This document shows, piece by piece, positions 49,123 through 51,746 of a DNA stretch of 60,234 nucleotides. Below the pieces are notes generated by a model. The model saw only the letters and a list, made by a program, of their open reading frames with translations. It did not search any database and was not told where the DNA came from. Position numbers and translations under genes: made by a program. Numbering within the stretch: the stretch's first letter is position 1; each line of letters begins with the position of its first letter. The stretch is taken from positions 112,251 to 172,484 of the forward strand of contig MGCS01000011.1 in NCBI GenBank assembly GCA_001790515.1, given 5' to 3'. This DNA is from Candidatus Saccharibacteria bacterium RIFCSPHIGHO2_12_FULL_44_22 (GTDB lineage Bacteria; Patescibacteriota; Saccharimonadia; Saccharimonadales; Saccharimonadaceae).

Positions 49123-49782
49123 TTAGCGCCAATTCAATACAATCTGATTTATTTTTGCAACCGTAACCTCGTGAGTAGGCACATCATTCACCTGGTAATA
49201 GTGATTAGTTCCTAAAAAGTTAGCTTTTACATCAAGAATGTGTAATTCGTCTGCGTACATATGTAACTTATCGACGACAGCAACATCAGCAACGGGCGCG
49301 GCAACGACAAGGCGTTGGACCCGAATTGGTTTCAAAAAGTCTAGTGCAACATCAAGGATCGAGATACTATCGAGCCCGTCCGCTACGAGTATAACTGTAT
49401 GATCACGCAGCATATCATGATCAATCATACCGCCATCACCTAGTAATCTGTTTATCCTACCGAAAGCTTCACGCTTCTGCTCCTCCAGATAGCCATGAAA
49501 CTCCGTCGCATATTCCTCGGCCTGACCAGCGGACATCTGTGAATTATAGGTAAAATTTCCAGACTGAGACATCGACCCAAATGAAGTGCTTTCGCCAGGC
49601 ACTTCAATTCCTTCAATTATCAACATCGTCAATATACAGTGCAAACTGGCTGCTATTTGCTCACCAACCTGGACTGCGCCGTCGCTCAATGCGACGACAG
49701 CACAGTTTTCGTAACGATACTTATCAAGCAGTTGACCCGATAGAAGTTGACCCGCCTGAGCGCGACTTTGAAAATACATCAT
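49123..49782 (-). CDS. phosphoribosyltransferase-fold protein with degenerate PRPP loop
   Basis: 219 aa from ATG 49782 (a second ATG follows directly). The text YENCAVVALSDGAVQVGEQIAASLHC and HTVILVADGLDSISILDVALDFLKP matches predicted phosphoribosyltransferases (COG1926 type). The PRPP loop is normally VDDGLATGAT; here it is VADGLDSISI, with the first Asp and the TG lost. PRPP binding is therefore doubtful. Function unknown. The start is 8 nt after a -10 box that overlaps the -10 box of priA. Confidence 0.72.
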   Translation of the reverse strand: MMYFQSRAQAGQLLSGQLLDKYRYENCAVVALSDGAVQVGEQIAASLHCILTMLIIEGIEVPGESTSFGSMSQSGNFTYNSQMSAGQAEEYATEFHGYLEEQKREAFGRINRLLGDGGMIDHDMLRDHTVILVADGLDSISILDVALDFLKPIRVQRLVVAAPVADVAVVDKLHMYADELHILDVKANFLGTNHYYQVNDVPTHEVTVAKINQIVLNWR

Positions 49783-49790
49783 ATAAAGCA

Positions 49791-49798
49791 AGTATAAT
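49791..49798. promoter_or_regulatory. overlapping -10 boxes of the divergent priA and phosphoribosyltransferase genes
   Basis: Plus strand TATAAT 49793-49798, 7 nt before the priA ATG (49806). Minus strand TATACT 49796-49791, 8 nt before the ATG at 49782. The two boxes share the TATA core, and both genes would be leaderless. Confidence 0.65.
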
Positions 49799-49805
49799 GG
49801 ACTGT

Positions 49806-51746
49806 ATGGAATATTACGAGGTTGCGCCAAATCGCATTGTCCGCGCCGGCAGTGACTCCTTTACGTACTCCAGCAGTCGACGACTATCTATCGGCCAGAT
49901 CGTTACAGTAGAGCTTGGGAGTAAAGAACAAGTAGGTGTTGTGGTTAAAAGAGTAGCTCAACCCTCATATAAAACAAAGTCAATCATAGCCACCATAGGT
50001 GACGCCTCTCTCCCTCAGCCATTACTACAGCTAGCATTATGGATGAGAGATTACTATGCCACTCCCCTAGCCACCGTTTTTCAAACAGTCTTGCCTCGAG
50101 GGATCACGAAAAAAAGACGCCCGCGTATTAACATCGATGCAGTGCGATTACGCGACCGAACACAATATGTGCTCACAGACGATCAACGTAATGCGCTGGA
50201 AGTAATTACCGCAATGAACCCCGGAAGTGCCCTTGTTCATGGCGTGACAGGATCAGGTAAAACACGTCTTTATATTGAACTCGCCGAGCGGGCTGTGGCC
50301 AACGGTAAGTCCGTCATAGTGCTCGTTCCGGAAATTGCTCTCACGTCCCAGCTAGTTGATGAGTTCTCTCATCACTTCGAAAATATTATTCTGACACACT
50401 CTCGTCAAACGGAAGCAGAGCGACACCATGCGTGGTTAGAGGCGCTGCATAGTACAATACCTCGGATTGTTGTTGGACCACGCTCTGCACTTTTTATGCC
50501 ACTCATTCATATTGGATTGATTGTTATCGATGAGTCTCATGAGCCAAGTTTTAAACAAGAACAGGCGCCACGTTATTCCACCTTGCGCGCCGCAAGCATA
50601 CTCGCCCGTTATCATAGAGCCAAGGTCGTGATGGGCAGTGCAACACCTTTAATCAGTGAGTACTATTTAGCAAAACAATCCGACCGACCCATTATTCAAA
50701 TGAATACGCGTGCCAAGCTGGGCGCGATTATGCCAACCATTACCGTTGTTGATCTTACAAAGAAACAAAGCTTTAAGAAACATCGGTTCTTATCAAATAC
50801 GCTACTGGATGAATTAGAGAGAACATTCGCAACAGGCAATCAGGCGCTCATTTTTCATAACCGACGCGGCAGCGCTAGTACGACGCTTTGCGACAACTGT
50901 GGTTGGACATCGACATGCCCTCGATGTTTCGTTCCTTTTACACTTCATGCAGACCGTCATCATCTGCAATGCCATATCTGCGGCAGTACTGAGCGAGTTC
51001 CGACAAGCTGTCCAGAATGCCACAATGCAGACATTATTCATAAAGGAATCGGCACAAAGCTGATAGAGTCAGAACTGCGCAAATTTTTTCCTGATAAAAA
51101 AATTGTACGGTTTGACGCAGACGCGACCAAAGAAAACTCAGTTGATAAACGATACAAAGAACTATACGATGGTTCAATTGAACTTATGATTGGCACTCAA
51201 GTCGTCGCCAAGGGACTTGACTTACCCCACCTTCGAATGGTCGGTGTTATCCAGGCGGATGCAGGTTTAAGTCTGCCCGACTACGGAGCTTCAGAACGAA
51301 CGTTTCAGCTACTTGCACAGGTCGTTGGACGAGTAGGACGCACAGAGCATCCGACATCAGTTATTATTCAATCATATCAGCCCAATCACCCCGCCGTTGT
51401 CGACGGCATTGCACAAGATTATGAACATTTTTATGAAACAACGCTCGCTGAACGTAAACGTGCAAAGTTTCCTCCGCACACATTTTTACTCCAATTAACA
51501 TGCGTTTACAAGACCGAGGCAGCGGCGGTGCGCAATGCGCAAGCCGTCGCTCGGAATCTTCGAGCAGTCGCTCCTAAAGATATAGATATTCTTGGTCCAA
51601 CTCCTGCATTTTACGAACGGCAGCATGAAACCTACCGATGGCAGTTACTTATAAAATCGCCGAAACGTAGTGATCTTGCTGGGCTCCTCAAACATATTCC
51701 GTCGACTCATTGGCACGCCGAGCTTGATCCGCTTTCATTACTATAG
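49806..51746 (+). CDS. priA: primosomal replication restart helicase PriA
   Basis: 646 aa. The start at ATG 49806 (MEYYEVAPNRI) is set by the -10 box; an in-frame ORF extends upstream but is antisense coding. It restarts stalled replication forks. Walker A GVTGSGKT (about residue 148), DEXH-like IDESHEPSFKQEQ, and two zinc clusters of eight cysteines (CDNCGWTSTCPRC and CHICGS...CPEC). It heads the classic priA-def-fmt operon. Confidence 0.95.
   Translation: MEYYEVAPNRIVRAGSDSFTYSSSRRLSIGQIVTVELGSKEQVGVVVKRVAQPSYKTKSIIATIGDASLPQPLLQLALWMRDYYATPLATVFQTVLPRGITKKRRPRINIDAVRLRDRTQYVLTDDQRNALEVITAMNPGSALVHGVTGSGKTRLYIELAERAVANGKSVIVLVPEIALTSQLVDEFSHHFENIILTHSRQTEAERHHAWLEALHSTIPRIVVGPRSALFMPLIHIGLIVIDESHEPSFKQEQAPRYSTLRAASILARYHRAKVVMGSATPLISEYYLAKQSDRPIIQMNTRAKLGAIMPTITVVDLTKKQSFKKHRFLSNTLLDELERTFATGNQALIFHNRRGSASTTLCDNCGWTSTCPRCFVPFTLHADRHHLQCHICGSTERVPTSCPECHNADIIHKGIGTKLIESELRKFFPDKKIVRFDADATKENSVDKRYKELYDGSIELMIGTQVVAKGLDLPHLRMVGVIQADAGLSLPDYGASERTFQLLAQVVGRVGRTEHPTSVIIQSYQPNHPAVVDGIAQDYEHFYETTLAERKRAKFPPHTFLLQLTCVYKTEAAAVRNAQAVARNLRAVAPKDIDILGPTPAFYERQHETYRWQLLIKSPKRSDLAGLLKHIPSTHWHAELDPLSLL

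Follow-up and report, generated by a model that had tools for sequence, protein, structure and literature searches.

A candidate bidirectional promoter with overlapping -10 elements between priA and a phosphoribosyltransferase-like gene in a Saccharibacteria genome

Can two divergent genes be served by one promoter that takes up the complete region between their start codons? The question is raised by a locus of Candidatus Saccharibacteria bacterium RIFCSPHIGHO2_12_FULL_44_22, where priA and a phosphoribosyltransferase-like gene (PRT) are transcribed away from each other, within the stretch of 60,234 nucleotides of contig MGCS01000011.1 that was analyzed (the window). A first-pass annotation of this DNA had proposed that both genes are leaderless and share one overlapping -10 region, that two polymerases cannot use the site at once and that the genes are therefore expressed in alternation.

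The gene pair and the geometry of the site

Judged from the encoded proteins, the assignment of the two genes as priA and a phosphoribosyltransferase-like gene holds. The priA product contains the PFAM domains PriA_3primeBD, DEAD, Zn_ribbon_PriA and PriA_C, and the PRT product matches PF00156 just over the cut-off (29.7 bits versus 26.3, E=4.7e-7). The priA start that is listed in Table 1 is backed by the relatives, in which the conserved N-terminus MxYYEVAP begins at the equivalent codon. The alternative in-frame ATG was rejected as the priA start, as it overlaps the -10 hexamer and is not the start that is kept in relatives. For the PRT gene it is the second of the two consecutive in-frame ATGs that represents the start conserved in relatives. 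The mechanically defined open reading frame of priA reaches back to position 49581, which is 225 nt before the conserved start and within the opposite gene, and this extension (window positions 49581-49796) could misguide automatic start annotation.

Direct reading of the plus strand from 49780 to 49808 yields CATATAAAGCAAGTATAATGGACTGTATG. The TATAAT of priA and the TATACT of the PRT gene, located on opposite strands, overlap by 4 bp (49793-49796), and the start codons are 24 bp apart, counted from first base to first base. The geometry, including the distances of 7 nt (priA) and 8 nt (PRT) between box and start codon, is thus as it had been described in the first-pass annotation; the gap of 8 nt is at the long end of the range. 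Neither of the two boxes is preceded by TGn. From the boxes and the start codons, a distance between the transcription start sites of 21-24 bp is expected (ideally 21 for a register of 4 bp). A TTGAAA at 49768-49773, at 19 bp from the TATAAT, was considered as a conserved -35 element and set aside: it lies inside PRT codons and is absent from L013 and L032. No TTGACA-like -35 element for the PRT box was seen at the locus.

Table 1. Coordinates of the genes and the putative promoter elements within the window
Feature	Position	Strand	Remarks
priA coding sequence	49806..51746	+	start ATG 49806; alternative in-frame ATG 49797
Phosphoribosyltransferase-like (PRT) gene	49123..49782	-	start ATGATG (49782 / 49779)
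Putative -10 hexamer TATAAT of priA	49793..49798	+	7 nt upstream of ATG 49806-49808
Putative -10 hexamer of the PRT gene, TATACT	49791..49796	-	8 nt upstream of ATG 49782-49780, 11 nt upstream of ATG 49779
Candidate bidirectional promoter core	49783..49805	.	entire intergenic region, 23 bp; based on sequence and relatives

Sequence signs of leaderless initiation in the genome

Leaderless genes with a -10 box immediately upstream of the start codon are known in many bacteria and archaea. To specify how common such boxes are in this genome, 413 kb of stretches, around one third of the 1.23-Mb genome, were screened for hexamers that match TATAAT in at least five of six positions, with T1, A2 and T6 fixed, at 6-8 nt ahead of an ATG. 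We found such boxes at 63 of the 526 candidate start ATGs (12%) versus 17 of the 2069 internal ATGs (0.8%), an enrichment of around 15-fold, and within the same sample the box positions peak sharply at a spacing of 6-8 nt from the start ATGs. A Shine-Dalgarno-like 4-mer was present in only 2 of the 63 genes with such a box, versus 87 of 249 other genes, and around half of the boxes carried a TGn.

Judged by sequence, leaderless genes thus appear to be common in this Saccharibacteria-like genome. The enrichment at start ATGs and the near absence of Shine-Dalgarno-like elements in the genes with such a box make it plausible that priA and the PRT gene are both expressed without a leader. Their boxes at 7-8 nt from the ATG fit within the general pattern of a -10 element at about 6-8 nt from the start and no Shine-Dalgarno element, although leaderless genes usually have one promoter each, whereas this pair would share one. 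The chance of encountering boxes on both sides is about 1e-4, conservation not yet counted. A search of a literature library for a published map of transcription start sites or for transcript data recovered none for this organism, its relatives or such bacteria.

Conservation and lability of the arrangement in relatives

The PRT gene was matched in 185 of the 295 family genomes searched, and, where the flanking sequence was readable, most of the genomes that carry it had priA divergently next to it. The promoters were compared for the 116 family loci in which both starts were readable, without requiring an AG before the TATA. The priA box is TATAAT in 61 loci and TATACT in 51, hence one of the two in 112 of 116, mostly at 6-7 nt from the start. 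The PRT gene, on the other hand, generally has its own extended -10 element, TGnTAnnnT, mostly at 6 nt before the ATG (TGn in 90 of the 116 loci), and this element is usual however far away priA starts, over distances of about 29 to 169 bp. The PRT genes of most relatives therefore resemble extended -10 promoters (TGnTATAAT), unlike the boxes of the window, and the overlap represents a minority state. The priA and PRT starts are between 19 and about 170 bp apart. The compact form that is encountered most often has starts at around 30 bp (e.g. CATACGCTTATTTTAGCAGTATACTGGTAGTTATG in G155); the hexamers are then separated by 4 bp and do not overlap, and the TGn of one box almost touches the other box.

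The six genomes that combine starts at 24 bp with the 4-bp overlap (G000, G063, G024, G146, G154 and G184) belong to genera g1, g64 and g25. Within this set the constant parts are only CATCATA, A[GT]TATAAT and the priA ATG, and both spacers vary. The minus box has identical spacing in all six and is TATACT except in G146, where a G-to-T change has converted it to TATAAT, which is still consensus. The six genomes represent only two or three lineages. In the PRT tree the genome of the window and G063 are sisters (100/97), but g25 is not firmly placed, so that the 24-bp form may have had one or two origins. Genus g25 also holds genomes in which 63 to about 166 bp separate the starts, so that the 24-bp state is labile. 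The A to which the minus box owes its last T was also encountered in 17 of the 66 loci with separated promoters, so that its conservation is suggestive, short of proof.

These data bear on the reading in which priA alone uses the -10 element and the minus TATACT arises only because TATA is nearly symmetric, the promoter of the PRT gene being located elsewhere, either inside priA or as a weak, degenerate extended -10. The TGnTAnnnT at 6 nt before the start of most PRT relatives, next to a retained TATA[AC]T on the priA strand, is in line with this reading, and so are the relatives with the palindromic core CAGTATACTG, which have an opposite-strand TATACT regardless. The six 24-bp genomes, however, lack a TGnTAnnnT at the usual place and have TATACT or TATAAT at leaderless spacing in six out of six cases, and the minus box is held near consensus by the two bases, A and G/T, that it does not share with the box of priA. 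We therefore regard exclusive use by priA as rather unlikely.

Other forms of overlap were found as well. In g11 the -10 boxes of two genomes overlap by 2 bp, and the tightest form was read by eye in G030 (L020, g31), CATACTAGGTATAATAATAGCATG, where TATAAT and TATTAT overlap by 5 bp and the starts are 19 bp apart. A palindromic TATA core is part of the priA -10 region in L003, L004 and L082, where it has the sequence mentioned above, and in other relatives; it provides TATACT on both strands, besides a separate PRT extended -10, and in such relatives the PRT gene may have tandem start sites. The gene pair, with a PRT protein that is 78% identical and with the 24-bp promoter, is also present in a record labelled Chloroflexi bacterium PMG_070 (L032, SEAL01000066.1), which is probably a mislabelled bin.

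A probable shared promoter and its expected behavior

Bidirectional promoters with a shared -10 region constitute a class that was established by experiment by Warman, Grainger and co-workers (PMC12825309, PMC10268837). Divergent transcription start sites at 18, 10 and 23 bp are common, 18 bp being the commonest type, and small variations are allowed (PMC12825309, PMC10268837). In E. coli, 24% of these promoters are located between divergent genes and yield two mRNAs (PMC12825309). The locus in the window resembles this class in its pseudo-symmetric -10 on both strands, its divergent genes and the predicted mutually exclusive binding of polymerase. It differs in that both mRNAs would lack a leader, with an intergenic region of only 23 bp, and in its register of 4 bp (ideal start-site distance 21, start codons 24 apart, deduced here from sequence) versus the 18-bp type; the ideal distance of 21 is not exactly one of the preferred 18, 10 and 23. 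The arrangement in G030 falls into the published 18-bp register and is tighter than that of the window; the earlier remark that no simpler arrangement was known for two coding genes can thus not be maintained.

Taken together, we consider it likely that the 23-bp region is a bidirectional promoter for the housekeeping sigma factor, from which two leaderless mRNAs are produced, usually at a low level and independently of each other. Whichever way it is oriented, RNA polymerase would encounter a -10 element in the AT-rich, pseudo-symmetric core AGTATAAT. Each transcript would start at, or one or two bases from, its start codon, leaving both mRNAs leaderless, which would account for an intergenic region of only 23 bp. 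That initiation is leaderless and proceeds from a shared -10 element, as had been proposed, is supported by the genome-wide statistics in conjunction with the recurrence of the 24-bp geometry. A polymerase bound in one orientation would block the other orientation at that instant, and priA and the PRT gene would probably each be expressed at a low level without switching. We infer the positions of the start sites, the recognition by sigma, the exclusion and its missing regulatory consequence. The bidirectional type as such has been described before; notable is that both mRNAs would be leaderless and that the whole 23-bp region would be promoter, which illustrates to what extent the control region of two genes can shrink in the absence of leader sequences.

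The first-pass annotation went one step further and held that the genes are expressed in alternation. Such a regulatory switch would build on the overlap, which rules out simultaneous binding: that two polymerases do not occupy the site at once is likely, as it follows from the geometry, and for bidirectional promoters steric exclusion has been stated (PMC12825309). It would also agree with the finding that in E. coli strong activation of one direction represses the opposite one, an effect that was brought about only by raised transcription (PMC12825309). Nevertheless, basal transcription was too low for competition at five of the five E. coli promoters tested, and weakening of one direction barely affected the other (PMC12825309), so that alternation is not expected by default. 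Moreover, the same gene pair is retained, with well-separated promoters, in relatives whose starts are as much as about 170 bp from each other, and exclusion is therefore not a conserved requirement. Alternation is thus unsupported, and we hold a true switch to be very improbable. Marginally less so, albeit still a long shot, is a minimal regulatory unit, selected in several lineages, in which the orientation of the polymerase sets the balance between PriA, a replication-restart helicase, and the PRT-like enzyme. Within the family the same promoter pair occurs naturally at a range of start distances, which should be useful for testing the importance of polymerase exclusion. The least credible account is a chance juxtaposition through genome compaction, in which longer transcripts serve both genes and nothing is shared: the genome is small and its intergenic regions are short, but the high frequency of -10 boxes at 6-8 nt from start ATGs across the genome sample and the TATA[AC]T in nearly all priA loci speak against it.

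Within the 413-kb sample of the same genome some other divergent pairs drew attention. The candidates at L046 18720/18737 and L059 16335/16356 were rejected, as one open reading frame of each pair overlaps a better one or seems spurious. A second candidate bidirectional promoter was found at L058 4493/4515, where open reading frames of 190 aa (GTG start, minus) and 446 aa (ATG start, plus), both without a PFAM match, diverge at 22 bp, and where the minus box TATAAT, at 7 nt from its start codon, overlaps by 5 bp with the plus box TATTAT, at 9 nt. A weaker candidate is present at L055 662/686, between diverging MscS-like and Sua5/YrdC genes with a start distance of 18 or 24 bp, a TATACT on the minus strand (9 nt) and a weak TAGTAT on the plus strand. 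Given the candidates at L058 and L055, the arrangement at priA may not be unique within the genome.
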